A DNA stretch of 64,000 bases from Synechococcus sp. M16.1 (GTDB lineage: Bacteria; Cyanobacteriota; Cyanobacteriia; PCC-6307; Cyanobiaceae). The DNA lies in assembly GCF_014279895.1 (NCBI RefSeq), contig NZ_CP047954.1:124001-188000 (forward strand). The letters are read 5' to 3'. Below are positions 35,437 to 51,156 of the stretch, piece by piece; within the stretch, counting starts at the first letter, position 1; each line of letters begins with the position of its first letter. Under the pieces are notes generated by a model. That model worked only from the letters and a program-made list of their open reading frames with translations. It searched no databases and had not been told where the DNA came from. Both the position numbers and the translations under genes were made by a program.

Positions 35437-35511
35437 CCCTTCGCAACGCTCGTGGCCACCCTTCCGTGGACTGCTTATAGGGTCCTCCTATCGGTCCAAT
35501 CACAAGCATTC

Positions 35512-36225
35512 ATGTCCGTTGCACTGGCTGCCCAGATTCGTGAAGGCACGAAAAAGTCGCACACCATGGCCGAGAACACCGGCTTTGTGAGCTGCTTCCT
35601 GAAGGGTGTCGTCGACAAATCCAGCTATCGCAAGCTTGTTGCAGACCTCTACTTCGTCTACGAGGCGATGGAAGAGGAGATCGACAAGCTGGGTGATCAT
35701 CCGATTGTTGGACCGATTGGCAAGAAAGAGCTCAATCGTCGCGAATCTCTCGAGCAGGACCTCACCTATTACTTCGGTGCAGGTTGGAAAGAGCAGATTC
35801 AACCCTCTCCGTCCGCAGCGGCTTACGTTGAACGGATTCATGCCGTAGCGAAGGAGTCCCCAGAGCTCTTGGTCGGCCATCACTACACCCGTTATCTCGG
35901 TGATCTCTCTGGTGGTCAGATCCTCAAGAACATCGCCCAGAAAGCGATGAACATGGATGGCGACGACGGACTTCGTTTCTACGTCTTCGATGACATCGCC
36001 GATGAGAAGGCGTTCAAGGCCAATTATCGCGCTGCGATGGATAGTCTTCCGATCGATCAGGCAACGGCCGACCGCATCGTCGAGGAAGCCAATCATGCTT
36101 TCCACCTGAACATGAACATGTTCAAGGAGTTGGAAGGCAATCTTGTTGCCGCGATTGGCAAAGTGCTGTTTGGCTTCCTCACCCGTCGTCAGCGGGCAGG
36201 CAGCACCGAGGCCGCAGCCGCTTGA
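35512..36225 (+). CDS. ho1: Heme oxygenase (type 1)
   Basis: Heme oxygenase opens heme to biliverdin IX-alpha using ferredoxin, the first step to phycocyanobilin and phycoerythrobilin. The 237-residue protein shows the N-terminal helix with the proximal-His region IREGTKKSHTMAENTGFV, the conserved YLGDLSGGQILKNIAQKA distal helix, and FYVFDDIADEKAF. The ATG at 35512 (MSVALAAQIREG) is preferred over one 20 codons upstream, since the upstream part holds a TATAGGGT-like -10 at about 35476. Its stop lies 10 bases before the start of the first glycosyltransferase of the surface-glycan run. Confidence 0.95.
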   Translation: MSVALAAQIREGTKKSHTMAENTGFVSCFLKGVVDKSSYRKLVADLYFVYEAMEEEIDKLGDHPIVGPIGKKELNRRESLEQDLTYYFGAGWKEQIQPSPSAAAYVERIHAVAKESPELLVGHHYTRYLGDLSGGQILKNIAQKAMNMDGDDGLRFYVFDDIADEKAFKANYRAAMDSLPIDQATADRIVEEANHAFHLNMNMFKELEGNLVAAIGKVLFGFLTRRQRAGSTEAAAA

Positions 36226-36235
36226 GTGTTCACTG

Positions 36236-37285
36236 GTGCCCACCCAACTGATTCGTTTCCTGGTCCCCGGGATCAGCAGTCGCTTTCGTTGTGGAGGGCT
36301 CAGCGTCGAACAACAGACCGCCCGACTAGTGGCGAATCTGTGCCCGACGGAACTGGTCACCTACCGCGAACGCTCACCCGAGCATCCGTACCTGGACGAC
36401 TGCCTTCGCCTGGAGCCCCCGGATACCAAGGTTCTCTGGGTGGTCAGCTGGGGCTTTGATGTTCCTGGCTTAATCCGTCGCTTAGATGGCCGTCGGGTTG
36501 CGTACCACGCCCACAGCAGCGCCTACGGCTTTGACTTGCCGCCAGGTGTTCCTGTCTTGGCCGTCAGCCGCAACACCTTGGGCTATTGGGGCAACCAAGC
36601 TCCCCGCAACCCCCTTGCCCTGGTCCCGAATGCTCTGGACCAGACCTGGCTCGACCGTGGCGACCGTGCGGTAAGCCAGCGCCGCCCGATCGATGTGTTG
36701 GTTCAGGCCCGTAAGAGCAGTCCTTATGTTCTGAGGCAACTGGTGCCAGCCTTGCGACAGGCGGGCCTTGTGGTGGAAGTTCAGACGGGCTGGGTGGATG
36801 ACCTGGTGGATCTGTTCAACCGCTCCACGGTGTATCTCTACGACTCAGCGGAGTACTGGCGCGGACGTGGCGTGACCGAGGGCTTCGGCTTGCCGCCGCT
36901 GGAGGCATTGGCCTGTGGATGCGTTGTGTTCAGCAGCCTCAATCACGCCCTGGCGGACTATGGAGATCCAGGTCACACCGTGCATCAGATCGGTTGTGGG
37001 CGGCTGCGTTTCGATCTTGAGCGGATCCAGGCTGCTGTTGCATCCCCTCAGCGCTGGCGGCCCTCCAGCGATTATTTGGAGGACTTGCTTCACGAGTGTT
37101 CAGAAGCTGTGCTGCTCGAGCGCTGGCGTGGTGCCTTCGCACACCTGGATGCAATCGAGGCAGTATCGGGGCCTCTCCTCAGCAGTTCTCCCACGTGGCG
37201 GTTGAGACTGCAGCATCTGATCGATCGACTCCAGCGAGTGGTCAATCGGTTGCCCGGCTGGCCGAAAGGCCTGCTGCACCGATAG
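36236..37285 (+). CDS. Glycosyltransferase, GT4-like
   Basis: The 349-residue protein resembles GT-B fold retaining glycosyltransferases. The C-terminal half contains GRGVTEGFGLPPLEALACGCVVFSSLNHALADY, the usual E-x7-E donor-binding block (EGFGLPPLE), and the N-terminal half has the acceptor-side Rossmann features. The donor and acceptor sugars are unknown. The start is GTG at 36236 (MPTQLIRFLVPG), 10 bases after ho1. The ABC exporter gene follows after 49 bases, so this is the likely first gene of the surface-glycan run, possibly driven from the ho1 promoter. Confidence 0.82.
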   Translation: MPTQLIRFLVPGISSRFRCGGLSVEQQTARLVANLCPTELVTYRERSPEHPYLDDCLRLEPPDTKVLWVVSWGFDVPGLIRRLDGRRVAYHAHSSAYGFDLPPGVPVLAVSRNTLGYWGNQAPRNPLALVPNALDQTWLDRGDRAVSQRRPIDVLVQARKSSPYVLRQLVPALRQAGLVVEVQTGWVDDLVDLFNRSTVYLYDSAEYWRGRGVTEGFGLPPLEALACGCVVFSSLNHALADYGDPGHTVHQIGCGRLRFDLERIQAAVASPQRWRPSSDYLEDLLHECSEAVLLERWRGAFAHLDAIEAVSGPLLSSSPTWRLRLQHLIDRLQRVVNRLPGWPKGLLHR

Positions 37286-37334
37286 CTTTTGCGACTATGG
37301 ATAAGAGGAGATGGATGGTGGTGTTTATCGCTGA

Positions 37335-39170
37335 ATGATTGAGGCTTTGCAGCGATCCATCCAGAGTCAGACCTGGAGAGAACTTCAAGTTCTGCTTCGT
37401 GAGCTAGCGCCAGAAAGACGACGGTTTCTCGCTCTGGTCCTGTTGGCGTCGCTCTTGCAGGGATTGGTCGATATTTTTTTGGTGGGTTTGTTGGCGCGTT
37501 TGGTCGGCTTGCTAGCTGGAGCCAAGCTCGGTGACCAGATTCCTGGGATTCGTTTTTTTGGCGGAGGTTTACAAGATCAGGTCGGCTGGATTGTGGTCTT
37601 GCTGATAGCGGCTTACTGGTTGGTATCTGGTATTCGTTTCGGGGTGGCCTTGCTCGAATCTTTATTGACAGCGGAGATTTGGGCAGACCTAGTGAATAAA
37701 GTTTACCGGAATTTGATGTTGCAGCGTTATGAGTTTTTTGTGCTTAATCGCAAGGCGTTGTTGTCTGAGCGCTTTAATCGAATTCTGTCGCGTGTGACAG
37801 GAACTGTGATTACTCCAATGATTGCTATTTCGGCAAGCTTTGTGTCTGTCACCGCGCTGATTCTCGGAGTGGGATTGATGCTTGGCAGTACATCTCTGTT
37901 TATTTTCGTCCTGCTGTTTGTTGCCTATGCACTTTCTTCGAGAATAATTACTCCTTATCTTAGGTTGGCTCTGCGTCAGAAAATTCGTTATTCAAGGCGC
38001 CTCAAATTAATCTTTTCTGAGTCAATGAGATCGATTAGAGATGTACAATTATATTCTTCGCATGAATATTTTGTCAATCGATTCTCTAGCTCAGGAGTTC
38101 TAGCGAAGAGGAGTGATCGTCTTTCAAAGTTATTGCCTGCGGTTCCGCGATTTGTCATAGAACCCGCAGGTATCACAATTCTTTTTGTGGTGGGACTTGC
38201 CCCTGCGATTTCCTCCGGAGATGCTGACCGTCTGCGTGAGGCGCTTCCGGAATTGGCGACGGTTCTGGTGGTGCTCTTGCGTATTACGTCGCCTTTGCAA
38301 ACCGTTTTTAGCAATGTCAATAAGTTGCGTGGTGGGCTTCCTGAGGTGAAAGATGCTTTGGAGTTGCTCAGGATGAGACCCAACCGATTGTCTCTTGGTG
38401 ATTCAGGAGTTCCCTCTTCGGACGGCATCATGCCGAGTCGGTTGATTGAGCTCAGTGGAGTCAACTTTTCTTATCAAGAAAGTGATCGACTCGTTCTTGA
38501 AAATGTGAGTCTTTCAATTCCTGTGGGCTCTCGAATTGCCCTTGTTGGCAGCACAGGGAGTGGAAAAACAACCATTGCCCATCTTTTGCTTGGTCTTTAC
38601 ACGCCTTCGACAGGTGGCTTGTTGCTCGACGGTGTGCCTGTCTCTGCGGAGGAAATGCCGGCATGGCAGGCGAATTGTGCATTCGTTCCCCAAAATATTC
38701 GCTTGCTTGATGCAAGCGTCAGAGAAAATGTTGCCTTTTGCGAGGATCCAGATTCAATCGATGACAATGAAGTTTGGGCGGCTTTAGAAGCCGCTCAGTT
38801 TTCTGAATTTGCAGCCCAGATGCCCTACGGTTTGTACACAATCTGTGGTGAGGATGGCATTAAGCTTTCGGGAGGTCAATGTCAGCGCTTGGCGTTAGCT
38901 CGAGCTTTTTATCGAAAAGCCAAACTCATGGTTTTGGACGAGGCTACAAGTGCTTTGGATAACAAAACAGAGCATGATGTGATGCATGCCCTCGACTTGA
39001 TAGGAAGACGATGCACCATGGTTGTGATCGCGCACCGCCTTTCAACGGTTAAAAAGTGCGATCGTATTTTTGAGATTTCCCAGGGCCGTATTGTTGCTTC
39101 GGGAGACTTTGAAACTCTCAAGAAGCTTTCACCAAGTTTTCGCGAGATGACCATGTTGGATGCGGTTTAG
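37335..39170 (+). CDS. ABC transporter, fused permease and ATPase (lipid/glycan exporter type)
   Basis: This 611-residue half-transporter has an N-terminal membrane domain of about six helices (residues 30-330) and a C-terminal ATPase with Walker A VGSTGSGKTTIAH, Q-loop FVPQNIRLLD, signature LSGGQCQRLALARA, Walker B LMVLDEATSALD and H-loop IAHRLSTV. It belongs with MsbA/PglK-like exporters that flip lipid-linked glycans or lipids. Its position directly before four glycosyltransferases supports glycan or lipid-linked-oligosaccharide export. The coding sequence is clearly AT-richer than the flanking genes (many TTT, AAT, TCT codons), a possible sign of transfer. Confidence 0.9.
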   Translation: MIEALQRSIQSQTWRELQVLLRELAPERRRFLALVLLASLLQGLVDIFLVGLLARLVGLLAGAKLGDQIPGIRFFGGGLQDQVGWIVVLLIAAYWLVSGIRFGVALLESLLTAEIWADLVNKVYRNLMLQRYEFFVLNRKALLSERFNRILSRVTGTVITPMIAISASFVSVTALILGVGLMLGSTSLFIFVLLFVAYALSSRIITPYLRLALRQKIRYSRRLKLIFSESMRSIRDVQLYSSHEYFVNRFSSSGVLAKRSDRLSKLLPAVPRFVIEPAGITILFVVGLAPAISSGDADRLREALPELATVLVVLLRITSPLQTVFSNVNKLRGGLPEVKDALELLRMRPNRLSLGDSGVPSSDGIMPSRLIELSGVNFSYQESDRLVLENVSLSIPVGSRIALVGSTGSGKTTIAHLLLGLYTPSTGGLLLDGVPVSAEEMPAWQANCAFVPQNIRLLDASVRENVAFCEDPDSIDDNEVWAALEAAQFSEFAAQMPYGLYTICGEDGIKLSGGQCQRLALARAFYRKAKLMVLDEATSALDNKTEHDVMHALDLIGRRCTMVVIAHRLSTVKKCDRIFEISQGRIVASGDFETLKKLSPSFREMTMLDAV

Positions 39171-39176
39171 GTAGTC

Positions 39177-41387
39177 GTGGCCGACATTGTTCTTCTGGCC
39201 ACGTCGGACTGGGACCATCCGCTCTGGACCAACAAGCAGCATGTGACCTGTGCGCTGGCAGAGCTGGGTCATCGCGTTCTTTATGTGGATTCCCTTGGGG
39301 TCCGTGCTCCACGGGTTGATCGCTCCGACTCGGGTCGGATTTTGAGGCGTTTGCGTCGGGGATTTCGTGGGCCGCGTCAGGTGAGGCCAGGGGTATGGGT
39401 CATGTCGCCTCTGGTGCTGCCGGGGCAGACCCGAGGCTGGGCCGGACTCCTAAACCGTTGGAGTCTCAATCTCAGCCTGTTGGTGGCCGATTGTCTGCTC
39501 GACCTGCGCCTTCCGTTGCTTTGGACGTTCAATCCCCAGGCCCGCGATTATTTGCGCTTGAGCCGGTTCCATGCCGTGGTGTATCTCTGCGTGGATCGCA
39601 TTCAGGCGCAGCCGGGGATGCCGGTGCAGCCTCTGGAGGATGCGGAGCGTGATCTCTGCTCTCTGGTTAATGCGCTGTTCACCACCTCGCCGGAACTGCA
39701 GGCCTCGCTCGGGCCTCTGAATGCCGGCAGCCATGGTTTTGGCAATGTGGCTGATGCCACCCATTTCGGTCAGGCCCTGCATGCCGGCCTGCCCCGACCA
39801 GCGGATTGGCCCGCCACCAAGGGGCCAGTGCTCATCTTCATTGGTGCGATCGATGCCTACAAGCTCGATCTCACCATGCTCGAGGCCTTGATGGAGCGAA
39901 CCCCCCATTGGACTTATCTCTTCATCGGTCCTGTGGGGGAGACCGATCCCAGCACTGACGTCAGCACCTGGAAGCGCTTTCCCCATGTGCATCAGCTGGG
40001 CCCGAGGCCTTACGCCAGTCTCCCCGCTTACCTCGCCCATGCCGATGTGGCGTTGTTGCCGCTGCAGATCAATGACTACACCCGTCATATGTACCCGATG
40101 AAATTCTTCGAGTACCTGGCGGCCGGTCGCCCAGTGGTGGCCACGGCGATCCCCGCCTTGTGCGATCAGGGGGATGTGGCTCTGCTTTGTGAACCTGAGG
40201 TGTCCGCTTTTGAGGCGGCGATTCAGCAGGCGTTGGCAGGGGAGGGGCCGTCCCTGGAGCACCGGCTTGAGCGTGCCCAGCTGCATACCTATCGCACGCG
40301 CACCCAGGCGATGCTCGACTGCCTCAGTCAGCACGGCCTGATGCCAGATGAGCCCTTGGCTCCCCAGGCTCCCCGCTATTTCCATTTGCTTACTCAGCTG
40401 GGTCGACCCCACCTTTCAGCTCAGCTGCGCCTCGCCCAGTTGCGCGTGCTGGAAAGCTTGGGGCAACAACAGTGGGCTGAACGTTGCCTGCGTCGCTGGC
40501 TGGTGCGGGAGCCGTTCAACATCACTTTGCTGAATGATCTGGCCCGGCGTCGTTTCGCTCAGGGCGACCATCGTGAGGGTCGACGCGTGATTGAACGGGT
40601 CTGGAAGGAAGACGGTGAAGCCGAAATCCTGCACCAACTGTTATCGCGCCGCCGGTCTTTACAGGGCAGCCGCATCGATCAGCTGGCGATGTTGGATGAA
40701 CTGGCCTCCAGCACGGTTTTGCCGATTCACTTCGTGGGCTACTGCCGGATGGTGTGCACCTATCTGGCCATTGATGCCAAGGATGTGGCGGCGTTGCGCC
40801 GGGGTGTGGAAGGACTGGAGGTGATCTTGGCGGAGTTGGAGTGCGATCCCGATACCTTCCGCTGCCTCCAGCCCAAACGGAAGAACCGAGCCAAATTGCT
40901 GATCTCAGCGCACCTCACGCGTCTTCGTGCCTTGATAGCGCTGAAAGACACCGCAGCTTTGAATCGGGCCTCATGCGATCTGCTGGTCATCGCCCGGCGC
41001 TACGACCCTTTCGCCACTGATCGCGTCACGGCCATATCCATGACCCGCAGCGTCATGGGCTGTCTCACCATTGCCGCGGTGATGGCTTGGCATGCCGGCG
41101 ATCCGCGGCGTTTCGATGCCGTGGTCGATGAAATGGAGCGTCTGTGCAAAGCCTGTCATGCCGATCGCTTCGACGTGATCGCGGGCGAAACTCACGAAGA
41201 CCATCGAGGTTTTGCTGATGCTGTAGTGGCTAGGCTTCAAGCATGCCGCTGGTCGGTATCGGAACCCAGCGCGCGTCCGTCCAGGCACCAGTTGGTTGAT
41301 CCTGTCCAGCGGGTGTTTTTCTCGGATTTGCGTCGGGAACGAGCCGCCAAAGCCGAGAGCTTTCTGCAATCGCTTGGGTTGCGCTGA
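39177..41387 (+). CDS. Glycosyltransferase with long C-terminal helical domain, 736 aa
   Basis: Residues 1 to about 395 form a GT-B glycosyltransferase (LLATSDWDHPLWTNKQHV, GPVLIFIGAIDAYKLDLTMLE, YTRHMYPMKFFEYLAAGRPVVAT). The remaining 340 residues are helical and TPR-like (LESLGQQQWAERCLRRWLVREP, NDLARRRFAQGDHREGRRVI) and match no domain I know. The fusion might let the enzyme dock to the other glycosyltransferases or a carrier. The start is GTG at 39177, six bases after the exporter stop. The TGA overlaps the ATG of the next gene. Confidence 0.82.
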   Translation: MADIVLLATSDWDHPLWTNKQHVTCALAELGHRVLYVDSLGVRAPRVDRSDSGRILRRLRRGFRGPRQVRPGVWVMSPLVLPGQTRGWAGLLNRWSLNLSLLVADCLLDLRLPLLWTFNPQARDYLRLSRFHAVVYLCVDRIQAQPGMPVQPLEDAERDLCSLVNALFTTSPELQASLGPLNAGSHGFGNVADATHFGQALHAGLPRPADWPATKGPVLIFIGAIDAYKLDLTMLEALMERTPHWTYLFIGPVGETDPSTDVSTWKRFPHVHQLGPRPYASLPAYLAHADVALLPLQINDYTRHMYPMKFFEYLAAGRPVVATAIPALCDQGDVALLCEPEVSAFEAAIQQALAGEGPSLEHRLERAQLHTYRTRTQAMLDCLSQHGLMPDEPLAPQAPRYFHLLTQLGRPHLSAQLRLAQLRVLESLGQQQWAERCLRRWLVREPFNITLLNDLARRRFAQGDHREGRRVIERVWKEDGEAEILHQLLSRRRSLQGSRIDQLAMLDELASSTVLPIHFVGYCRMVCTYLAIDAKDVAALRRGVEGLEVILAELECDPDTFRCLQPKRKNRAKLLISAHLTRLRALIALKDTAALNRASCDLLVIARRYDPFATDRVTAISMTRSVMGCLTIAAVMAWHAGDPRRFDAVVDEMERLCKACHADRFDVIAGETHEDHRGFADAVVARLQACRWSVSEPSARPSRHQLVDPVQRVFFSDLRRERAAKAESFLQSLGLR

Positions 41388-42535
41388 TGGCCGTGCTGCG
41401 GGTGGTGTTCATCATTGATTCGCTCAAGCTCGGTGGTGCGGAGCGGGTGTTGCTCCGCTGGGCCGGCTGGTGCCGTGAGGAAGGTTGGCAGGTGTTGATA
41501 ATCACGCGGCATGGTCCCCAGCGTGATGCCTATCCAGTTCCCGACGGGGTGGAACGCTGGGTGGAGCCCCGGCTGTCAGTGCCCCTGGAGCGGTTGGGCT
41601 GGTTTGCTTTCCCCTGGCGGCTGTTGGCCTTGCGCCAGTTGTTGCTTCGATACCGCAGTGATGTGGTGGTGGGCGTGACCACCTTGCCTGCGGTGAAACT
41701 GCTGCTGGCCAGTGCAGGACTGCCATTGCGCACCGTGGTTTCTGAACGCAACTACCCGCCGGCCAAGCCTCCGTCCCTGCTCTGGCGATGGTTGCGGCGC
41801 CTCACCTATCCCTGGGCCGATTTGCATCTGGTTCAGACCGTCCCCGCCGGTGTTTGGCTGCGCGATCACTGTGCTGTGACGCGCCAACGGTTGCTGCCCA
41901 ATCCGGTCAGCTGGCCGCTGCCGGAGCGGGAGCCTGTGGTGTCGCCTGAGGACTGGCTGGCAGCCGATGCTCCCTTGATCCTTGCGGCGGGAACAAAGTC
42001 GCATCAGAAGGGATTTGATCGTTTGATGCCTGTGTTCGCTGAGCTGGGGCTGCGGTTCCCCAGCCTGCATTTGGCCTTGCTTGGACTCGCGCCGGGTCGC
42101 TATCACGGCCGCGACCAACAGGCCGACTTGCGCCAGGCTCTCGGTGACAACTTTGACTTGCAGCAGCGGATGCTCTTGCCGGGCGTCAGCGGGAGCATGG
42201 CTCGTTGGTATTCGCGGGCCACGGTGTTCGTGCTGCCATCGCGCTATGAGGGTTTTCCCAATGTGTTGCTGGAGGCGATGGCAGCCGGTTGTGCCTGCAT
42301 TGCTAGCGACTGCCTCACTGGGCCTTCGGATCTGATTCGCGATGGTGAAAACGGACTCCTTTTGCCGCCCCAAGCCACCACCGACGCTTGGGTGGACGCG
42401 ATCGAAACGTTGCTGATGGATCCGGAGTACCGGTGCCGGTTGGGCGCTCGGGCGGCAACGGTGCGGCAGCGTTATGCCGCTGAACGCCTGCGGCGTGATT
42501 TTCTAGAGGCGTTGCGCCCACCGCGCCATGGATGA
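41387..42535 (+). CDS. Glycosyltransferase, GT4 family
   Basis: The 382-residue product has a clear GT4 layout: an N-terminal IDSLKLGGAERVLLRWAGW, the acceptor domain, and a C-terminal donor domain with SRYEGFPNVLLEAMAAGCACIASD (the EGFPNVLLE E-x7-E motif). It should transfer a sugar from a nucleotide donor to a lipid-linked or soluble glycan. It is translationally coupled to its neighbours (one-base overlap upstream, eight-base overlap downstream). Confidence 0.9.
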   Translation: MAVLRVVFIIDSLKLGGAERVLLRWAGWCREEGWQVLIITRHGPQRDAYPVPDGVERWVEPRLSVPLERLGWFAFPWRLLALRQLLLRYRSDVVVGVTTLPAVKLLLASAGLPLRTVVSERNYPPAKPPSLLWRWLRRLTYPWADLHLVQTVPAGVWLRDHCAVTRQRLLPNPVSWPLPEREPVVSPEDWLAADAPLILAAGTKSHQKGFDRLMPVFAELGLRFPSLHLALLGLAPGRYHGRDQQADLRQALGDNFDLQQRMLLPGVSGSMARWYSRATVFVLPSRYEGFPNVLLEAMAAGCACIASDCLTGPSDLIRDGENGLLLPPQATTDAWVDAIETLLMDPEYRCRLGARAATVRQRYAAERLRRDFLEALRPPRHG

Positions 42536-43787
42536 TCTCTGGGTTGTGCTTCCCCATATCGGTGCTGGCGGTGCCCAGAAGGTAGGCCTGCTCGCTGCGG
42601 AGCATTTCGCGGTTCAGGGATTCAAGGTGCGGGTGCTCTCTCTTCGCCATGGCCATCCCATCAAGCATGCGATCCCCGATGGTGTGGAGCTCTTGGATCT
42701 GGGCCCGGATGTTGAGGGCGGTGAGAATCGTTCGTTGATCGCGCGGCTGCGTCGCTTCACTAATGCTCAGTTGATCAAGTTATGCCGTTTGCTGACGTTG
42801 GCCGGCCTTCAGCTCACCTGGCGTTGGTGTGAGCACAAGGTTCAGCCTGATGCCGATGCTTGGGTGACTCGCCTGCTCGCATGGTGTATGGAGGGCCTTG
42901 GTGGTCTGCGCTACCGACGTCTTCGAGTGCTTTTGCAGCAGCAGCGCCCGAAGCGTGTGTTGGCACTGCTCACCAAAACCAACATCCTTTGCGCGGCTGC
43001 GGTTTGGGACCTTCCCATTCATCTCGTCGTGTCTGAACGCAATGATCCGCGCCTTCAGCAACTCGATCGTCTCTGGAGTCGGTTGCGCTCCGTTTACTAC
43101 CGCCGTGCCGATGTAGTGACGGCCAATACGGAGGGGGTTCTGGATGCTCTTCAGGCCATGGGACCATGGAAACGTTTAGCTCTCTTGCCTAACCCCCTTC
43201 CTGGTGGTTTGAGGCTGCAGGATTCTCACCAGCCGAGTCACGATCAGCGGGAGATTCTGGCGGTGGCTCGTCTGGTGCCCCAGAAGGGTCTGGATGTGCT
43301 GATCCGTGCTTTCGCGTCTCTGCCGCCGTCGGTCCGAGATGGTTGGTGCGTCACCCTTGTGGGTGATGGGCCGGAGCGCCAAACCCTTGAAGAACTAGCA
43401 AGCGTTGCGGGGCTCAGGGATATGGTCCGTTTCGAGGGATTCCGCTCGGATCCGCTGGTGTTTGTGCGCCGCGCGTCGATCTTTGCGCTGCCTTCGCGGT
43501 TTGAAGGAATGCCCAATGCACTGCTTGAGGCCATGGCGGCAGGACTGCCCTCGGTGGTGAGTGATGCATCACCCGGTCCGCTGGAGATGGTGAGGGATGG
43601 TCAGCAGGGGCTGGTGGTGCCCAGTGACGATGTGATCGCTTTCGCTGCGGCACTCCAGCGGCTGATGCTCGATGGAGATCTGCGCCATCGTTGCGGTGTT
43701 GCTGCCATGGCAACGTTGCGGACGCTCGACTGGGATGTGGTGGAGTCCCACTGGCGTTCGGTATTGGCTTTGCCTGCGCAGCTATGA
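42528..43787 (+). CDS. Glycosyltransferase, GT4 family
   Basis: The 419-residue protein begins with LPHIGAGGAQKVGLLAAEHF and has the GT4 donor site SRFEGMPNALLEAMAAGLPSVVSD plus VARLVPQKGLDVLIRAFASLP. It resembles the preceding GT4 enzyme in general layout. Its start overlaps the previous gene by eight bases, and its TGA overlaps the next ATG by four bases, so it is in the middle of the coupled run. Confidence 0.9.
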   Translation: MDDLWVVLPHIGAGGAQKVGLLAAEHFAVQGFKVRVLSLRHGHPIKHAIPDGVELLDLGPDVEGGENRSLIARLRRFTNAQLIKLCRLLTLAGLQLTWRWCEHKVQPDADAWVTRLLAWCMEGLGGLRYRRLRVLLQQQRPKRVLALLTKTNILCAAAVWDLPIHLVVSERNDPRLQQLDRLWSRLRSVYYRRADVVTANTEGVLDALQAMGPWKRLALLPNPLPGGLRLQDSHQPSHDQREILAVARLVPQKGLDVLIRAFASLPPSVRDGWCVTLVGDGPERQTLEELASVAGLRDMVRFEGFRSDPLVFVRRASIFALPSRFEGMPNALLEAMAAGLPSVVSDASPGPLEMVRDGQQGLVVPSDDVIAFAAALQRLMLDGDLRHRCGVAAMATLRTLDWDVVESHWRSVLALPAQL

Positions 43788-44956
43788 GTGAGGTCCCCGC
43801 CGGTCGCAGCAACTGCCGTGAGCGGGTGCTTGTTTTGGCCCCCACAGCACGCGCTGTCAGTGAAACGTTCATTCGCGCCAATCTCAACGGGCTGTCATTG
43901 GACTTGACGGCTTACTTCGGCGATGACCTTCCCTTGCATGCGCCTTGGCGATTGGCCTACGGCAGTGCCATCTTCATCAGCAAATTTTTCACGCGTTTGA
44001 ATTGGCTGCATCTGGCTGGCTTGCCTGCAGCCTGTGTGGCCTTTGCCCTGATCCGTCGCCATCAACCGGAGGTGGTGATGGTTGAGTTTGGCTTTGAAGC
44101 CGTGCGGGTGATGGAGGCCTGCGTTTGGTCGGGCGTACCCCTGGTGGTGCATTTCCGCGGATCCGATGCTTCTGCACGGACTCGACTGGGGCTTCTCAAG
44201 AATCGTTATCGACGTCTGCTGAGCATGGCCTCCGGTGTGATCGTCAAATCCAGACCAATGGCCGACACCCTGTTAGCGCTGGGTGCACCGGCGGACCGCC
44301 TGCTGATCAGTCCCTCTGGCGCCAATGCGTCCTTGTTTCAGGGCAGCTCCCCGGCTGCGGCCCCCCCTGTCCTGTTGGCAGTGGGGCGTTTTGTGCCCAA
44401 GAAAGGACCTCTTGAAACCCTCCGAGCATTTGGCTTGCTTTGCCGTGATCCAGTGCTTTCTGCCTCCAAGCCCCAACTCTGGATGGTGGGTGACGGACCA
44501 CTGTTGCCCTCAGCACGATCGCTGGTGATTGAACTTGGCCTTCAGGAGAGGGTTCGCTTTCTGGGTGTTTGCTCTCAAGTTCGTGTGGCGGAACTGATGC
44601 GGCAGGTCCGAGGATTCGTTCAGCATTCGAAGGTGGCCCCGGATGGTGACAGCGAGGGCAGTCCCGTGGCAGTGATGGAGGCTCAACTCAGTGGTTTGCC
44701 CGTTGTTGCGACGCGTCATGCGGGCATTCCTGAGGTGGTGCTGGAGAACCAGACAGGGTTGCTGGTGGATGAAGGAGATGAGTGCGCCATGGCACATGCG
44801 ATGAGCTTGCTGCTGTTGGATCCTGCGTTGGCGGCAGAGTTGGGTGCCTGCGGACGCCGGCGCATTCAAGAGCAATTCACGGTTGAACATCATCTTCGGC
44901 AGGTCGAGCAGCTGTTGCGCGATGCCATCTACGACAGGAGAGCAGCGTGCTGTTGA
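43784..44956 (+). CDS. Glycosyltransferase, GT4 family
   Basis: The 390-residue product has VLVLAPTARAVSETFIRANLNGL near the N-terminus, VGRFVPKKGPLETLRAFGLL in the middle, and a late donor motif GSPVAVMEAQLSGLPVVATRHAGIPEVV (SPVAVMEAQ replacing the usual EGFG block). This variation, seen in colanic-acid type WcaL enzymes, suggests a different sub-branch from the two GT4 neighbours. The ATG at 43784 overlaps the stop upstream; a longer frame begins inside the previous gene and is rejected. It is the last high-GC gene before the AT-rich sulfotransferase block. Confidence 0.88.
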   Translation: MSEVPAGRSNCRERVLVLAPTARAVSETFIRANLNGLSLDLTAYFGDDLPLHAPWRLAYGSAIFISKFFTRLNWLHLAGLPAACVAFALIRRHQPEVVMVEFGFEAVRVMEACVWSGVPLVVHFRGSDASARTRLGLLKNRYRRLLSMASGVIVKSRPMADTLLALGAPADRLLISPSGANASLFQGSSPAAAPPVLLAVGRFVPKKGPLETLRAFGLLCRDPVLSASKPQLWMVGDGPLLPSARSLVIELGLQERVRFLGVCSQVRVAELMRQVRGFVQHSKVAPDGDSEGSPVAVMEAQLSGLPVVATRHAGIPEVVLENQTGLLVDEGDECAMAHAMSLLLLDPALAAELGACGRRRIQEQFTVEHHLRQVEQLLRDAIYDRRAACC

Positions 44957-44962
44957 CGATTT

Positions 44963-45136
44963 ATGGAGTGGTCGAAACCAAACTTGTCCCTACGACGGCT
45001 ATCACTCTCGTCACTTTTTGCGAGGTCTAAGGTGGCTGTTCTGATGATGTGGTCTCGTTATGCTAAAGGTTTTAAAGAGATCCAAGAAGGGAATAAGTCA
45101 CTTTATTTATTTTCGGAATCACCTCTAATTAATTAA
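44963..45136 (+). CDS. Possible small ORF, 57 codons, filling the gap before the first sulfotransferase
   Basis: This ORF starts ATG seven bases after the preceding stop and ends with TAA four bases before the next ATG, so it fills the gap almost exactly. The product is basic and has no recognised family (it includes LRRLSLSSLFARSKVAV and AKGFKEIQEGNKSLYLFS). Codon use in the second half is AT-rich like the genes downstream. It may be a real small protein, a leader, or a chance ORF; there is no Shine-Dalgarno sequence that settles it. Confidence 0.3.
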   Translation: MEWSKPNLSLRRLSLSSLFARSKVAVLMMWSRYAKGFKEIQEGNKSLYLFSESPLIN

Positions 45137-45141
45137 TTAAT
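45126..45141 (+). repeat. (TAAT)4 tandem tetranucleotide reaching into the sulfotransferase start
   Basis: Four perfect copies of TAAT run from 45126 to 45141, and the last copy contributes AT of the ATG at 45140. The repeat lies at the ribosome-binding position of the first sulfotransferase gene. Confidence 0.8.
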
Positions 45142-46009
45142 GACTTTTCCGCCTGACGCATCTGTAAGGCCAACTGTGGTTTACATCACAAGTAGGGGCC
45201 ACAGTGGTTCTACTTTGTTGTCTCTAATACTTGGAGGTCATTCTCAGATTGTGAGTGGAGGAGAGTTGAAGATGCTGATTAATGCCAAGGATGAAAACAA
45301 ATTATGTAGCTGCCACTTTGTAACTCCAGATCAATGCCCTTTCTGGAGTCAGGTGCAGCGTCATGTCATCGATTCTGTCGGTGTTCCTTTTGATGAGCTT
45401 GCTTTAATGGAGGATGGTGATGATGAGACTTTCTCACTGCATAATCAGGCTTTGTTCACTGCGATTGCTGATGTAAGTGGCTGTTCGATCGTTGTTGATT
45501 CATCGAAGTCTTTGATGCGTTTGTCCCGCTTACTTCGGGCGCAGGAAAATGGATGTTTTATCAATGTGCGGCCTATCCATCTTCATAGAGGCCCCTTGGG
45601 GTTTGCAAACAGTTGTCGAAGAAAAGGTCAAACATTATTCGCTGCAGCTGAACGTCATTCGAGGGAATTTTTTAGAACTCGCGAATTCCTCAGTGGCAAG
45701 TCTCATTTGTTTGTTAGTTATGAAAAATTTGCTCGTCAAACAAGGCCCTCGCTGTGCCGTTTGATGGGCTGGATTGGTTTGTCGATTGATGAATCTCAGT
45801 TACAGTGGAGGCAGGGTATTCGTAGAGATATTGGAGGAAATCGTATGCGAATTGGCGGCTCGTCTTTGATTCAAATCGATCAGAGTTGGAAGCATGATTT
45901 AACTATTGCTGAAATCATCAAGCTAACGTTCTTTACTCTGCCGATTCGTTTGCGTTCTAAATGGCTTTACTCTAGGTTCCGTAATCGCAGGATTAAATTT
46001 GGTTTATGA
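45140..46009 (+). CDS. Sulfotransferase family protein
   Basis: The 289-residue protein has the P-loop-like PAPS-binding motif TSRGHSGSTLLSLILGGHS at residues 16-34, a Cys-rich block CSCHFVTPDQCPFW (C-x-C-x7-C-x-F-W), the VVDSSKSLMRLSRLL helix, a 3'-phosphate region, and HLFVSYEKFA. Sulfotransferases move sulfate from PAPS to sugars or lipids. It is a paralogue of the next gene, with the same order of blocks. Base composition is much more AT-rich than the glycosyltransferases upstream. Confidence 0.85.
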   Translation: MTFPPDASVRPTVVYITSRGHSGSTLLSLILGGHSQIVSGGELKMLINAKDENKLCSCHFVTPDQCPFWSQVQRHVIDSVGVPFDELALMEDGDDETFSLHNQALFTAIADVSGCSIVVDSSKSLMRLSRLLRAQENGCFINVRPIHLHRGPLGFANSCRRKGQTLFAAAERHSREFFRTREFLSGKSHLFVSYEKFARQTRPSLCRLMGWIGLSIDESQLQWRQGIRRDIGGNRMRIGGSSLIQIDQSWKHDLTIAEIIKLTFFTLPIRLRSKWLYSRFRNRRIKFGL

Positions 46010-46135
46010 GTCTGGGCTTACGGATTCATTGTTGTTGATTTTGGCTTCTGTTCAGGCATTGCTATGCATGATTCCACTAGTCTTGAGTGGCAGGTTTGTC
46101 GCTCTTGGCAGTTCTTTTTCAGATTATACCTATGT

Positions 46136-46141
46136 TATAAT
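46136..46141 (+). promoter_or_regulatory. Consensus -10 box upstream of second sulfotransferase
   Basis: A perfect TATAAT lies 28 bases before the ATG at 46170, inside a 160-base AT-rich gap (46010-46169). No clear -35 is seen. This suggests the second sulfotransferase can be transcribed from its own start. Confidence 0.45.
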
Positions 46142-46169
46142 AAGCATTATTTGTGAAAATCTATAAAAA

Positions 46170-46979
46170 ATGACCTCCTGGAATTTGGTTTATATCACTA
46201 GCAATGGCCATAGTGGGTCAACATTGTTGGATATGTTGATCGGCTCCCACTCTGAGTGCATCACTTTGGGAGAAATTCATCAGCTCACGCTGAAGGCGAA
46301 AGGGGTATGTGCTTGTGGGGCCGCTAACTATAAAGAATGCTCTTTCTGGCGTGATATCGATTTACGACTTCAGTCTGATGGTGGACCTGAGTTGTCTGAA
46401 TTGCATGTCGACTCTTGCCATCAAGACGAATTTCGGCGTAGTAATCATGCATTGCTTAGTGTTCTTCAAGAGAAAACAAAAGCTCGTTGGTTTGTGGATT
46501 CATCCAAGAAGCTGACGAGATTAAAAAGTTTGCTCGCTGATTCCTCTATCAACGTTTTGCCTGTACACATTGTTCGACGGCCTGAGGGTGTCGTCTGCTC
46601 AAACATGGCAAAGGGAAGAGGATTTTTATCTTCGTTGCGTTCCTATTATTCTGGCCTTTGGTCCAGATATAAGTATTTGCGAAGGAAACCCCATCTTCTT
46701 GTTTCTTATGAGGAACTCTGTTCTCATCCAGAACAAGTGATGAATCGGATTATGAATAAATTGGGTTTAGATTTTGAGTCTGAGCAGTTGGATTGGTCAA
46801 GTCATGACCACCATAATGTAAATGGGAATAAGCGCACACGCACAACTCGCCAGTCTTCAATTCGTTTGGATGAGCGTTGGAGGACAGACCTCAGTATCTG
46901 GCAGCGTCTTGTTGTGAAGCTGGCTACGGTTAAATTCAAGACTTGGCTTCGATTGCGCTATGGGGTCGAGTCTTGCTGA
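46170..46979 (+). CDS. Sulfotransferase family protein
   Basis: This 269-residue paralogue of the preceding protein has TSNGHSGSTLLDMLIGSHS as PAPS-binding loop, CACGAANYKECSFW with the same C-x-C-x7-C-x-F-W spacing, WFVDSSKKLTRLKSLL, the 3'-phosphate site VHIVRRPEGVVCS, and LLVSYEELCSHPEQV. The pair looks like an ancient tandem duplication, since identity is limited to motifs. A consensus TATAAT lies upstream. Codon use is AT-rich. Confidence 0.87.
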   Translation: MTSWNLVYITSNGHSGSTLLDMLIGSHSECITLGEIHQLTLKAKGVCACGAANYKECSFWRDIDLRLQSDGGPELSELHVDSCHQDEFRRSNHALLSVLQEKTKARWFVDSSKKLTRLKSLLADSSINVLPVHIVRRPEGVVCSNMAKGRGFLSSLRSYYSGLWSRYKYLRRKPHLLVSYEELCSHPEQVMNRIMNKLGLDFESEQLDWSSHDHHNVNGNKRTRTTRQSSIRLDERWRTDLSIWQRLVVKLATVKFKTWLRLRYGVESC

Positions 46980-47038
46980 AAATTTCTTGCGAAGCTGATA
47001 GAATGAACTGAATTAATTCCATTACAGATCTAAAAAAT

Positions 47039-47878
47039 ATGCAAAAAATTGGACCTCACTTTATTGTCATCGGAGCGCAACGTTCTGGAACGACATGGCT
47101 TCATCGTGTATTGTCTCAGCACGATAAGCTTTGGCTTACTCCTGTCAAAGAGTTGCATTATTTTGATAAACAATCTATCAAGTTGGGAGTATTGAATAAG
47201 TATGAGCGTCATCGGGCTCGTTTCTGGAGCTGGAAGCGTGCGGCGATCGATCCGAGATGGTTTGGCCGCTATTGGTTCTTGCCTCGTGGTGATGAATGGT
47301 ATGCAAAGCTTTTTCGTCGAGCCCGTGCAAGGGGAAAAATTACAGGAGAAATTACTCCTGCTTATGCTGCAATGTCTGATCAAAAATGGGTTCAGATTCA
47401 TTCATTATTCCCTGATGTCCGTTTAATTTTTGTGATGCGAGATCCGATTATAAGAACCTGGTCTGCCCTTCGAAATAATATGAAGAAAGGTCGAATTGAT
47501 CCTTTCTCTTCTGTAGAAGATCTTATTGAGCTGTCTTTGAAGCCGTCCATTGCTTCTAGATCTGATTACCTCCATGCAATTCAGATGGTGGAGTCGAAAT
47601 TTGGGGCTGACCAGCTGCATTGCTGTTTTTTTGAGCAGCTCATAGCTGAGCCAACTGTTTTCGCGGATTCAATTTTTAAATTTTTGGGTGTAAATCCATT
47701 GGGAGAGGAATTGGTTGTTCCTGCGGCTGTTAATAGTGCAGCCGGCGGAGATCAACCTCCTCTTGCATTGCAGCGAGCTTTGGCAAAGGAGTATCTGCCT
47801 ATGACCGATCAGTTGGCTGACCGTTTTGGTGGCATTCCACGAGAATGGGCGACAAAGTATCGGAAGCTTTTGGGCTGA
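47039..47878 (+). CDS. Sulfotransferase domain protein (heparan-sulfate type)
   Basis: The 279-residue protein is from a different sulfotransferase branch than its two neighbours. The 5'-phosphosulfate loop is IVIGAQRSGTTWLHRVLSQH, followed by TPVKELHYFD, GEITPAYAAM, and the 3'-phosphate site FVMRDPIIRTWSALRNNM. These match the Sulfotransfer_1 family that sulfates glycans. It starts 59 bases after the second sulfotransferase (with a TAGAAT -10-like box in the gap at about 46998) and ends the AT-rich block. Confidence 0.9.
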   Translation: MQKIGPHFIVIGAQRSGTTWLHRVLSQHDKLWLTPVKELHYFDKQSIKLGVLNKYERHRARFWSWKRAAIDPRWFGRYWFLPRGDEWYAKLFRRARARGKITGEITPAYAAMSDQKWVQIHSLFPDVRLIFVMRDPIIRTWSALRNNMKKGRIDPFSSVEDLIELSLKPSIASRSDYLHAIQMVESKFGADQLHCCFFEQLIAEPTVFADSIFKFLGVNPLGEELVVPAAVNSAAGGDQPPLALQRALAKEYLPMTDQLADRFGGIPREWATKYRKLLG

Positions 47879-47967: not shown

Positions 47968-49212
47968 ATGAGTCAATATCTTTCCCTTGATGCTCCTGAT
48001 TTAGACAGCGATCTAATCGCTTTGTTGGCAGAACAGGCGGGCTTTTCTGGTGTTCGTCTTGCCCTGGTGGGAGGTGCTGTGCGCGACCTCATGTTGTATC
48101 AAATGCTCCGAGATCCTTGGCGTCCGCTGTCGGATCTTGACCTTCTCCTGGAAGGTTCATCCTCTGATTTTGTAAGTCATTTGCAGGATCTGTACGGACC
48201 TGATCGTGTCTCTGAGTTGCAGCTGCATGAGCAGTTTGGGACCGCTGAACTCGTGATTGATGGGTTGCGTTTGGATGTGGCCTGTGCCCGCACCGAGACG
48301 TATCCCGCGCCTGGAGAGAACCCTCATGTCCAGGCCGGCACTCTTGAGCAGGATCTCGCACGCCGTGACTTCACGGTGAATGCGATGGCTTTGGTGCTCC
48401 AACCGGATGGATCACCTCAATTGTTTGACCCCCATCGGGGTCGAGAGCATCTGTTGCAGCGTCAGCTTGTGTTCTTGCATGAAACCAGCGTCGCTGATGA
48501 CCCCACCCGTGTTTTTCGTGGCGCCCGCTATGGCGCCCGCCTTGGTTTTCAGTTGGCACCCTCAGCGTTGGTTCAGGTGCAAGCCACCTTGGTCCAGTGG
48601 CCCTGGGCGTGGAAGCCAGGTGACGTCATGGACGCTGTGCCTCCTGCCTTGGGCACCCGGTTGCGCATGGAGTTGGAGCTGCTGTTCGAACGTGAACCCT
48701 GGCAAGAAGCACTCACGCTGTTGCAGCAATGGTCCGCAATGCCCTTGCTTGATCCTGCCTTGCAACGCGATTGTCGTCTCTGCCGACGGCTGGTTCAGGG
48801 AAGTCGGCTTGAACTCCCCGCTTTGATGGTCCTAGTGGCTGCTGCCGGCGATCCAGTCGGTCTGGCTTCACGTTTGCAGCTTCCCCACCAACAGCAGCTC
48901 TGGCTTAATCAACTGGTTGATATTCGTCATTGGTTGGCTGATGAGGTCAGCGAATTGCCATGGGATGGCTGGGGTGCCCTGGATTGGACCCGGCGCCTCG
49001 AGCAGAAGCGCTGGGCACCTGAGGTGGTGGCGCTTGCTGTGCTCGACAACAACGCATTCCGACGACCAATGCTGCGGTGGTGGGGGCGTTGGCGGCATGT
49101 GAGATCACCAGTGAGTGCCCGCGAGCTCATGGCTCAGGGCGTAACGGCAGGTCCCGCCCTTGGCGATGCGCTGCGTCGTTTGAGAGATCAACAACTTCAG
49201 CAGATGTGCTGA
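47968..49212 (+). CDS. CCA tRNA nucleotidyltransferase / poly(A) polymerase family protein
   Basis: The 414-residue class II nucleotidyltransferase has the head-domain signature LALVGGAVRDL, the two metal-binding Asp in SDLDLLLEG, RRDFTVNAMALVL, and DDPTRVFRGARYGARLGFQL. It adds or repairs the CCA end of tRNA, a needed step here because the tRNA gene in this window lacks an encoded CCA. In cyanobacteria the family splits into CCA- and poly(A)-adding forms, which I cannot tell apart. An ATG at 47968 is preferred over TTG at 47959. It returns to normal GC after the sulfotransferase block. Confidence 0.88.
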   Translation: MSQYLSLDAPDLDSDLIALLAEQAGFSGVRLALVGGAVRDLMLYQMLRDPWRPLSDLDLLLEGSSSDFVSHLQDLYGPDRVSELQLHEQFGTAELVIDGLRLDVACARTETYPAPGENPHVQAGTLEQDLARRDFTVNAMALVLQPDGSPQLFDPHRGREHLLQRQLVFLHETSVADDPTRVFRGARYGARLGFQLAPSALVQVQATLVQWPWAWKPGDVMDAVPPALGTRLRMELELLFEREPWQEALTLLQQWSAMPLLDPALQRDCRLCRRLVQGSRLELPALMVLVAAAGDPVGLASRLQLPHQQQLWLNQLVDIRHWLADEVSELPWDGWGALDWTRRLEQKRWAPEVVALAVLDNNAFRRPMLRWWGRWRHVRSPVSARELMAQGVTAGPALGDALRRLRDQQLQQMC

Positions 49213-49221
49213 AGCAGGTGG

Positions 49222-49785
49222 TTAGTTGTTGCGATCCCGCCAGCCCTGGTCGGCAAGAGTTGTCCAGATCCCGCGGGCTTTCAGAACCCGCTCAGCCAGT
49301 TCGCGCACGGCGCCATGACCTCCCTTGTGATGCATCACTGCATCTGCTTGGCGGCGTATTGGCCCACAAGCGTCACTTGGCGCCAGTAGGAGTCTCACGT
49401 TGCGGCGGACGGCGAGATCGTTGAGGTCATCGCCCACAAAACCGGTGTTGTTTGGCGCAATCCCCAGGCGTTGTTGCAGTGCCTTGAGTGCGGGTGGTTT
49501 GTCTTGGATGCCCACCAGGCAGTGGTTGATGTTCAGTTGGCGTGCCCGTGCTTCTGTGGCACCGCCATGGCCACCGCTGAGCAACGCCAGTTCGATCCCG
49601 GCTTGTTGCAGCAGTTTCAGGCCGAGACCATCGCGAACGTCGAAGCGTTTCTGCAGTTGACCCTCCGGATCCAGCCATAGGCCTCCATCCGTGAGCACAC
49701 CATCAACGTCCAACACCAAGAGCTGCAACTGGGCCAGTGGTGTTTTGAGCCGTTGCCAGTGCCATTCACGCAGCATTCGTCGCAT
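49222..49785 (-). CDS. kdsC: HAD phosphatase, KdsC-like (3-deoxy-D-manno-octulosonate-8-phosphate phosphatase)
   Basis: The 187-residue protein belongs to the KdsC group of HAD phosphatases: motif I LVLDVDGVLTDGGLWLDPEG, LKLLQQAGIELALLSGG with conserved Ser, the Lys of QDKPPALKALQQRL, and motif III GFVGDDLNDLAV. KdsC dephosphorylates KDO-8-P during KDO synthesis; related C0-type HAD enzymes act on other nonulosonate phosphates. It converges with the cca-type gene across nine bases and diverges from the O-antigen-ligase-like gene. No kdsA, kdsB or kdsD is present in this window. Confidence 0.82.
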   Translation of the reverse strand: MRRMLREWHWQRLKTPLAQLQLLVLDVDGVLTDGGLWLDPEGQLQKRFDVRDGLGLKLLQQAGIELALLSGGHGGATEARARQLNINHCLVGIQDKPPALKALQQRLGIAPNNTGFVGDDLNDLAVRRNVRLLLAPSDACGPIRRQADAVMHHKGGHGAVRELAERVLKARGIWTTLADQGWRDRNN

Positions 49786-49947: not shown

Positions 49948-51156
49948 TTGCCAGGTTTGATTCACTACCTCAAATCTCCTTGGCTGGATCTGCTGCTTCC
50001 GCTCTCGCTGATGGGCTTCATTTGGGAGCGCAGTGGTAACCCAGCAGGCATGGTCTGCCTTCTCGCCACTTGGTGTGCTCTGAAGTTCGCACGATGGCTG
50101 CCCTCACAACCGGTGTACGGCGTGTTGATCGGGGTGCTCAGCATCATTCTCAGTGCGGTGATCCATCCCGTGAGCGCTTCGGCTCCCACAGATTTGTTGC
50201 TGGTGTTGCTTGCCTTCGCGGCTGGTCTTCAGCAATCCAAGGATCACTGGAGAGTCGCCCTCTGGATCGTGCTGGCGACCGTGATCGTTTCTCTTCCTTT
50301 TGTTGAGTTCGACCGATACAACAGCAATCTCGACGCCATCCCGTGGTCAGTTGTACGTGATCTCCTGCCTCAGGAAGCAGCTCGAATCCAGAAGATCACC
50401 ATCAATCGTTCCGGTTATCTCTACGGGCTTTTCGCCTTGGTCGGATACGGACTTTTTCGGGCTGAAGTTCGGCCTTGGATGTCCCGTTTGGCGGCGGTTG
50501 TGGGCATGCTCAGTTTTGTTATGGCTTTAGGAACCGCATCTCGGGCCGCTGCTCTGTTCCCAATGGCAGTACTGGTCTTGAGCGAAATGTTCTGGCGAAA
50601 TCGCCTTTGGGTGGCTCGGAGGGCTCAATCCCTCACGGCCGTTGTGTTGGTGTTGTCGTTGATGTTCAACGTGATTATTTATTGGCCTACCAGCCCATTG
50701 GCTGCTGGAGATCCTGCCGATGTGGGTCGAGCCAACATCGCTCAGTGTTTCGTGCGTCAGGCTGCACGCTCCTTGCCTGAGCTGGTGATCGGACAGGGCT
50801 ACGACAGGGTGTCTGATCATTGTGCTGAAAGGGTGTTTCTTCCTGTTCCAGATCGCACGAAGGAAATTCCCCATGCGCACAACGTTTTTGTGCAGGCACT
50901 TGCAGATCAAGGCCTTGTGACCTTGATGCTCATGGTGATGGCTTTCGCTGTGATTTTGCATCGTTTGTTTCTTGGCCTTGGGGGTGATGCAGCACCCCTT
51001 TGCTTGATCGGTTTGTCCTGTGCCCTGTTCATCCTTGCGTCCGCGTTGGTGGAATCCACGTTGCTGAAAACATCCCTGCAGCAGGTGATCAGTGGTTACC
51101 TGCTGGCCGTTGCTTGGGTGGCACCGGCACCGCGTGGGCCCATGCGGCACAACTAA
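49948..51156 (+). CDS. O-antigen ligase/polymerase-like membrane protein (Wzy_C/WaaL type)
   Basis: The 402-residue protein has about 10-12 hydrophobic helices and a large periplasmic loop (about residues 265-315) ending in the family motif IPHAHNVFVQALADQGLV, where the HxHN-type block is conserved in O-antigen ligases. Such proteins join glycan to lipid A core or polymerise repeat units at the periplasmic face. The start is a TTG at 49948 by frame; an ATG 21 codons later is possible. It sits between surface-glycan genes and pcrA, 21 bases upstream of the latter. Confidence 0.85.
   Translation: MPGLIHYLKSPWLDLLLPLSLMGFIWERSGNPAGMVCLLATWCALKFARWLPSQPVYGVLIGVLSIILSAVIHPVSASAPTDLLLVLLAFAAGLQQSKDHWRVALWIVLATVIVSLPFVEFDRYNSNLDAIPWSVVRDLLPQEAARIQKITINRSGYLYGLFALVGYGLFRAEVRPWMSRLAAVVGMLSFVMALGTASRAAALFPMAVLVLSEMFWRNRLWVARRAQSLTAVVLVLSLMFNVIIYWPTSPLAAGDPADVGRANIAQCFVRQAARSLPELVIGQGYDRVSDHCAERVFLPVPDRTKEIPHAHNVFVQALADQGLVTLMLMVMAFAVILHRLFLGLGGDAAPLCLIGLSCALFILASALVESTLLKTSLQQVISGYLLAVAWVAPAPRGPMRHN

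Follow-up and report, generated by a model that had tools for sequence, protein, structure and literature searches.

Passages of a study on Synechocystis 6803 describe synechan (xss) as a characterized gene cluster for a sulfated polysaccharide, and its authors place most cyanobacterial sulfotransferases (STs) in polysaccharide clusters of the Wzx/Wzy or the ABC type (PMC8205485; see also PMC13125312). For marine Synechococcus, excerpts of two further reports describe a Kps-like cluster of 12 genes similar to kps in clades III and WPC1 (PMC7522525), and glycosyltransferase-rich islands with a suggested role in phage or grazer recognition (PMC2441476). Here, we analyze a chromosomal locus of Synechococcus sp. 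M16.1. The window under study is a stretch of 64,000 nucleotides (G000:C1:124001-188000) from a genome of 2.11 Mb that is assembled as one contig. Positions 36236–47878 of this window hold nine genes on the + strand, flanked by ho1 and cca, which encode five GT-B glycosyltransferases (GTs), one ABC exporter and three STs of the type that uses 3'-phosphoadenosine 5'-phosphosulfate (PAPS; Table 1). Gene families were assigned with Pfam against curated cut-offs, and all nine assignments bear out the inventory that an initial annotation had drawn up for this segment. We propose, with a probability of about 0.7, that M16.1 carries here its own form of a surface-glycan island of picocyanobacteria, which would make and export a sulfated surface glycan.

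The locus resembles xss in that several GTs and STs (two in xss) are combined in one cyanobacterial locus. The sulfated product is characterized for xss and predicted from genes here. The described xss cluster is plasmid-borne and contains Wzx, Wzy, a co-polymerase and regulators (PMC8205485). In contrast, the locus in M16.1 contains one ABCB-type exporter and no regulator among the nine genes, resides in a chromosomal ho1/cca island, and is accompanied in congeners by genes for the synthesis of 3-deoxy-D-manno-oct-2-ulosonic acid (Kdo). No Pfam match to Wzx or a co-polymerase was found among the nine proteins and nine neighbors (the rest of the genome was unsearched). By combining GTs with an ABC exporter and STs, the locus fits an ABC-type sulfated-polysaccharide cluster in the sense of the relevant passages of that study (PMC8205485). 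Since cyanobacterial sulfated-polysaccharide clusters such as synechan have been published (PMC8205485), the locus represents a variant of an established type of cluster, and the initial remark that a dedicated gene set for a sulfated glycan would be notable in a picocyanobacterium is overstated. What is new here is the presence of Kdo synthesis genes within the ST-bearing island of most congeners.

Other systems share single features with this locus. The Kps-like cluster also comprises surface polysaccharide genes restricted to some lineages (PMC7522525), but no match to a kps-type exporter was found among the genes scanned here. As in the HepA (heterocyst envelope), PglK and MsbA flippase systems, a half exporter with a transmembrane domain and a nucleotide-binding domain (B_ABC) lies beside GT genes; B_ABC scores far under the curated cut-off of each model. 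Similarity to the heparan sulfate system is weak. The third ST (ST3) aligns with the PAPS core of its nearest solved relatives, the bacterial sulfotransferase 3rnl (E 4e-12) and heparan sulfate 3-O-sulfotransferase 1 (3-OST-1; E 6e-8), and with the latter also across an E-x-TPAY segment, but no heparan-type backbone enzyme was recognized at this locus.

The first six genes, A_GT to F_GT, look like one operon. They are closely packed, with intergenic gaps of 49, 6, −1, −8 and −4 bases, when F_GT is taken to start at 43784. This start, which overlaps E_GT by four bases, is the most likely one and replaces 43691. The STs are spaced more widely, with 183 bases between F_GT and ST1, 160 between ST1 and ST2, and 59 between ST2 and ST3. 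The description of the entire locus as joined by overlaps or small gaps is thus more accurate for the first six genes than for the STs. The GC content at third codon positions (GC3) is low in ST1–ST3 (0.39, 0.44 and 0.38) and in B_ABC (0.46) compared with 0.62–0.72 in the GTs. Promoter- and terminator-like sites between 44700 and 48100 are about as frequent as in shuffled sequence (3 vs 4.7 and 5 vs 4.1, respectively).

Comparison with related genomes provides evidence that ST1 and ST2 act together with the GTs. We mapped 39 stretches from 22 congeners by greedy calling of the longest open reading frames (ORFs). Such maps miss genes; kdsA of G155, kdsB of G151 and ST2 of G023 were recovered by separate searches. 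The usual order in congeners is ho1, A, B, C, D, E, F and an ST of the ST1/ST2 family, followed further on by kdsA(-), pcrA, a GT8-like gene, kdsB, kdsC(-), kdsD(-) and cca. The window departs from this order with ST3, cca, a kdsC-like gene (-), a Wzy_C-domain gene and pcrA. B_ABC is present in the stretches of 22 of 22 congeners, A_GT and C_GT in those of 19 each, and an ST1/ST2-family gene in those of 16. In the three congeners that lack A_GT (G172, G164 and G161), the stretches are cut at contig ends. The synteny comparison called for in the initial annotation reveals a glycan island that varies between genomes and includes a dedicated exporter. A minimal form of this island occurs in G153, G172 and G173, where an ABC gene 42–43% identical to B_ABC is combined with a different Wzy_C gene and a GT2; profile searches of these three genomes returned neither an ST1/ST2-family gene nor kdsA or kdsB.

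To count STs in the genus, which comprises 34 genomes including our own (19 of them near-complete, with at least 90% completeness and at most 5% contamination), we used a profile of ST1, ST2 and seven island relatives, which informs on that subfamily only. This profile matches 22 of the 34 genomes and 15 of the 19 near-complete ones. Twenty-six of the 28 matching genes are at most 12.4 kb away from cca or kdsB (25 of 27 places if ST1 and ST2 of the window, counted separately here, are merged). The other two are a gene on a short contig (G166:C89), which is unplaceable, and a weak match elsewhere (G169:130865, E 5e-4). Broken or very short copies of this family, which look like remnants, stand by the island at G162:C5:3684-4429 and G147:C1:209375, as expected of gain and loss.

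The association extends beyond the genus. In Synechococcus sp. CS-1328, which belongs to another genus (its ORFs are 100% identical to those of G069 over the common stretch), the genes run A, ABC, ST2, C, ST1, D, E, F, with kdsA- and kdsB-like genes behind them. The ST2 copy between the ABC and C_GT genes is 61% identical to that of the window. G023, from the same genus as CS-1328, carries both ST genes in the same places. Four genomes from outside the genus (G138, G075, G069 and G023) contain relatives of ST1 with 46–58% identity. The congeners G154 and G155 contain relatives with 48–49% identity, and there the ST1 copy shares one base with the end of F_GT. In Synechococcus sp. UW105, which is near-identical to G138 of another genus, the ST1 copy (58%) is part of a block with kdsA, kdsB, kdsC, kdsD, cca and pcrA, and none of the genes A–F lies within the 20.8 kb examined. 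Finally, a relative of ST1/ST2 from Planctomycetota adjoins an F-like GT. This co-location and the interleaving with GT genes are good evidence that ST1 and ST2 act in the same pathway as the GTs; for ST3 the evidence is weaker. The single pathway assumed in the initial annotation is supported to this extent, and the ST1/ST2 family is indeed conserved together with the island, but the STs of this strain do not look like part of the operon formed by the first six genes.

The family assignment of the STs is consistent with this role. PF13469 and PF00685 find five genes in the genome: ST1–ST3 and two outside the window, at G000:C1:741766 (L113) and G000:C1:1778135 (L114, with TPR repeats). In a six-frame scan of the genome, ST1 reached only 22.4 bits on PF13469. 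ST1 and ST2 are ~31–33% identical to each other, and across nine aligned ST1/ST2 sequences Arg150 and Ser158 are invariant. Both residues agree with the 3'-phosphate motif of PAPS enzymes. The genome encodes an adenosine 5'-phosphosulfate kinase, so PAPS can be made. None of the three STs contains a hydrophobic segment (maximum Kyte–Doolittle means over 19 residues of 1.31, 0.84 and 1.04), which implies that sulfation should be cytosolic. The islands of congeners contain further ST types (L044:7264-8085, L060:7015-7905 and L041:185-940), assigned by PF03567, by PF00685 and, in the case of ORF cluster 22, which has no Pfam match, by eye from the sequence. ST content hence varies from strain to strain.

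Several observations weigh against a sulfated glycan as the product of this locus. The nearest solved relative of ST1 and ST2 is the polyketide sulfotransferase CurM (44–46 bits), followed weakly by protein-tyrosine sulfotransferases; a sugar as their substrate therefore rests on gene context. The initial idea that the STs sulfate sugars finds support in the relatedness of ST3 to glycan STs. Yet the closest relatives of ST3 (58%, in G023 and G069) lie outside the islands of those genomes, and ST3-like genes are scattered across the family (58 of 151 genomes). Since ST1–ST3 are AT-rich and spaced off from the first six genes, they are possibly expressed apart. The nine proteins and their nine neighbors yielded no match to an outer-membrane export protein either, in addition to the missing Wzx and co-polymerase. 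The Wzy_C gene downstream is tied to the locus solely by neighborhood, and a structure model of its product, computed from a two-sequence alignment, was discarded (pLDDT 42). The GC3 and spacing of the STs, the absence of sugar enzymes among the nearest solved relatives of ST1/ST2, and the genomic position of the closest ST3 homologues could also mean that the STs are unrelated passengers of a variable island, which sulfate a metabolite, a lipid or a peptide. We judge this explanation to be very unlikely because nearly all ST1/ST2-family genes of the genus stand beside the island and because their counterparts in another genus are interleaved with GTs. A phage origin of the locus was rejected: 50,697 phage records contained nothing close to it, and viral contigs, which were searched for ST1/ST2 only, contained no relative of these.

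Two features went unnoticed in the initial annotation. In most congeners, the island also houses Kdo genes, and in the window, glycan-type genes extend past 47878, with a kdsC-like gene followed by the Wzy_C-domain gene. Kdo synthesis genes are found in congener islands at, for example, L051:356-1201(-), L060:3089-3868(-) and L039:8835-10366(-). One representative of each type was examined. KdsA and KdsB exceed equivalog cut-offs (TIGR01362, 364 bits, cut-off 314; TIGR00466, 190 bits, cut-off 155). The KdsC-type and KpsF/KdsD-type proteins exceed subfamily cut-offs (TIGR01670, 121 bits, cut-off 107; TIGR00393, 256 bits, cut-off 204) but stay under the equivalog ones (PRK09484, 122 vs 208; PRK10892, 233 vs 505), so we name kdsC and kdsD of the congeners at the subfamily level only. 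kdsA occurs in 23 and kdsB in 26 of the 34 genomes, and each occurs in 15 of the 19 near-complete ones. The near-complete genomes without them are the same four for both genes: G153, G172, G173 and M16.1 itself (G000). Among the 19 near-complete genomes, 14 contain both an ST1/ST2-family gene and kdsA/kdsB, one contains the ST only, one Kdo genes only, and three neither; Fisher's test gives p 0.016, which is weak and ignores relatedness.

Upstream of kdsB lies a gene for a GT8-like protein of 236 residues (PF01501, 18.9 bits, under cut-off). In all 16 stretches in which both ORFs were called, its stop codon shares one base with an ATG in the kdsB frame, and eight further copies are 78–91% identical to the first. 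As a guess, this protein may be the Kdo transferase.

The whole genome of M16.1 returned no match to kdsA or kdsB in the same searches that were positive in 23 and 26 of the 34 genomes. A search of this genome for kdsD was also empty but had no positive control, and this result was not used. Judged from its gene content, this strain would be unable to make CMP-Kdo by the known route. The KdsC-type phosphatase encoded at 49222–49785 would then be either a relic or a reused enzyme.

Cyanobacteria are usually described, in the passages available, as lacking Kdo and as having Kdo-free lipopolysaccharide (LPS) (PMC4515613, PMC3087551, PMC4390846); this includes reports on the marine Synechococcus strains WH8102 and CC9311, although the same source also cites findings of Kdo in a few cyanobacteria other than these (PMC4515613). 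As cyanobacterial LPS is reported to be Kdo-free, the Kdo encoded by congener genomes may be used in another glycan, with the sulfated glycan as the candidate that the shared island suggests. In most congeners, this glycan system probably includes Kdo. More tentatively, and at slightly under even odds, we propose that the genus (presumably marine Synechococcus) makes a surface glycan, distinct from LPS, that carries sulfate as well as Kdo. It would be built by one chromosomal island encoding the GTs, an ABCB flippase, STs, KdsA–D and, in translational coupling with KdsB, the GT8-like candidate Kdo transferase, with M16.1 as a natural Kdo-minus, sulfate-plus variant. Among the papers listed by a literature search, with most subscription papers outside its reach, there was no description of the ho1–cca island, of a link between ST and Kdo genes, or of a Kdo-minus form. 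The titles and abstract openings listed did not describe Kdo genes in marine Synechococcus, and the passages seen of PMC10100731, PMC7393227 and PMC7814594 were unrelated.

How may the enzymes of this island work together? On the cytoplasmic side of the inner membrane, the five GT-B enzymes would assemble an oligosaccharide attached to a lipid carrier. ST1–ST3, whose family is established, would transfer sulfate from PAPS onto this lipid-linked glycan in the cytosol. B_ABC, as its family suggests, would flip the glycan to the periplasm, where the neighboring Wzy_C-domain protein may ligate or polymerize it, and the end product would be a sulfated surface glycan. One of the GTs, C_GT, contains an extra part (residues ~400–736) that is all helical in a confident predicted model (mean pLDDT 86.6). 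According to this model, C_GT is a GT-B enzyme with a helical tail: its fold matches include MshA (3c4q, Z 32.1, rmsd 3.3, 352 aligned residues), HepE (4xsp, Z 28.2, rmsd 3.1, 326 aligned residues) and PglA. The idea that the helical part is a second enzyme was dropped. This part has no Pfam match over cut-off (best TPR_14, E 0.013) and a single sequence match in the PDB (E 0.13), and the fold matches fall mostly on the GT part (residues 1–391). The tail is missing or split off in some congeners.

The exporter bears on the question of what the glycan is attached to. Among NCBIfam models, B_ABC matches HepA best (NF045513, 266 bits, cut-off 725), followed by MsbA (TIGR02203, 261.7 bits, cut-off 602) and PglK (NF050066, 205 bits, cut-off 1000). 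Such an exporter, the adjoining gene with a Wzy_C (O-antigen ligase) domain, and the conservation of the island in the genus would be expected if the island made a part of LPS (outer core or O-chain), with B_ABC as LPS flippase and STs that sulfate LPS. We compared B_ABC with six other exporters of the genome, larger fused exporters being left out. Four of these score higher on the MsbA model (441, 422, 394 and 364 bits), one (L107) ties with B_ABC, and one has no match at E 1e-50; none of the six reaches the MsbA cut-off of 602. Since four exporters outscore it, the role of lipid A flippase is unlikely for B_ABC, which ranks about fifth among the seven, and MsbA was rejected as its best reading. 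Moreover, most congener islands encode Kdo synthesis, yet the LPS of WH8102 and CC9311 is reported, in the passages seen, to be Kdo-free (PMC4515613). An LPS part is for these reasons an unlikely product of the island.

The PglK match directs attention to protein glycosylation. B_ABC could flip the sulfated glycan, and the Wzy_C protein could act as an O-oligosaccharyltransferase that loads it onto surface proteins. The Wzy_C domain is common to O-antigen ligases and PglL-type transferases. PglH and PglJ models match D_GT and E_GT, and the fold search with C_GT recovered PglA. However, all scores to Pgl models, including those of D_GT and E_GT, are far under curated cut-offs, no glycoprotein gene was recognized in the locus, and among the stretches of relatives mapped, only the island of G075 contains a Wzy_C gene like that of the window (56–57% identical). 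We consider attachment to proteins to be quite unlikely. For the sulfated surface glycan proposed here, the Wzy_C-domain protein is, by its domain alone, a candidate ligase, polymerase or O-oligosaccharyltransferase.

Table 1. Features of the ho1/cca island in the window and examples of the GT8-like protein in congeners
Feature	Position	Strand	Evidence and remarks
ho1, heme oxygenase	35452–36225	+	PF01126 281 bits; adjoins A_GT in relatives; conserved left border, outside pathway
A_GT, GT4-type (GT-B) glycosyltransferase, 349 aa	36236–37285	+	PF00534 26.5 bits, cut-off 26.4, marginal
B_ABC, ABCB-type half exporter, 611 aa, HepA/MsbA/PglK-like	37335–39170	+	PF00664 (ABC_membrane) and PF00005 (ABC_tran)
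C_GT, GT-B glycosyltransferase (1–~390) with all-helical C-terminal part (~400–736)	39177–41387	+	PF13692 52.8 bits; PF00534, PF13524
D_GT, GT4 glycosyltransferase	41387–42535	+	PF00534 95.9 bits; PF13692, PF13439 over cut-off
E_GT, GT4 glycosyltransferase	42528–43787	+	PF00534 140 bits; PF13692, PF13439 over cut-off
F_GT, GT4 glycosyltransferase, 390 aa	43784–44956	+	PF00534 98 bits; PF13692, PF13439 over cut-off
ST1, PAPS-type sulfotransferase	45140–46009	+	PF13469 29.4 bits, cut-off 27
ST2, PAPS-type sulfotransferase	46170–46979	+	PF13469 39.7 bits, cut-off 27
ST3, PAPS-type sulfotransferase, related to heparan sulfate 3-OST	47039–47878	+	PF13469 69.7 bits, cut-off 27
cca, tRNA nucleotidyltransferase	47968–49212	+	PF01743; close to island in relatives; right border, outside pathway
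kdsC-like phosphatase	49222–49785	-	TIGR01670 (subfamily) 129.9 bits, cut-off 107; PRK09484 (equivalog) 131.6 bits, under cut-off 208
Wzy_C-domain membrane protein	49948–51156	+	PF04932 42.2 bits, cut-off 31.7
GT8-like 236-aa protein (examples)	L060:3868-4575(-), L076:2056-2757, others

The borders of the island and some of its ORFs gave rise to further observations. The cca gene of the window, for which an ATG start was picked by eye, is only ~46–58% identical to cca near the islands of relatives, compared with 82–99% for pcrA and 75–92% for ho1; it may have been swapped or may evolve fast in this strain. A gene at 53752–55200 of the window has no Pfam match at E 0.001, shares 61% identity with an ORF located after cca in G159, and falls into the same ORF cluster as the UW105 ORF between cca and ST1. 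It may encode a further glycosyltransferase of the island. A family of ~600 residues (L058:7271-9076, L024:528-2300), hydrophobic by eye and with no Pfam match over cut-off, recurs beside kdsA or ST1 and is possibly a GT-C enzyme. Matches of the ORF clusters "cl20" and "kdsD" to the window are antisense to pcrA and cca (a short cl20 match is antisense to F_GT) and were dropped as artefacts of greedy calling; ORF cluster 26, antisense-like by eye, was not used.

If most members of the genus carry Kdo genes in an ST-bearing island, two questions become directly testable through sugar and sulfate analysis of strains with islands that are full, Kdo-minus (this strain) or minimal (as in G153, G172 and G173): what Kdo is used for, and whether the sulfated glycan forms a capsule, extends LPS or is attached to proteins. 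By way of suggestion only, phages and grazers may target the glycan, which would also supply sulfated organic matter of defined origin.

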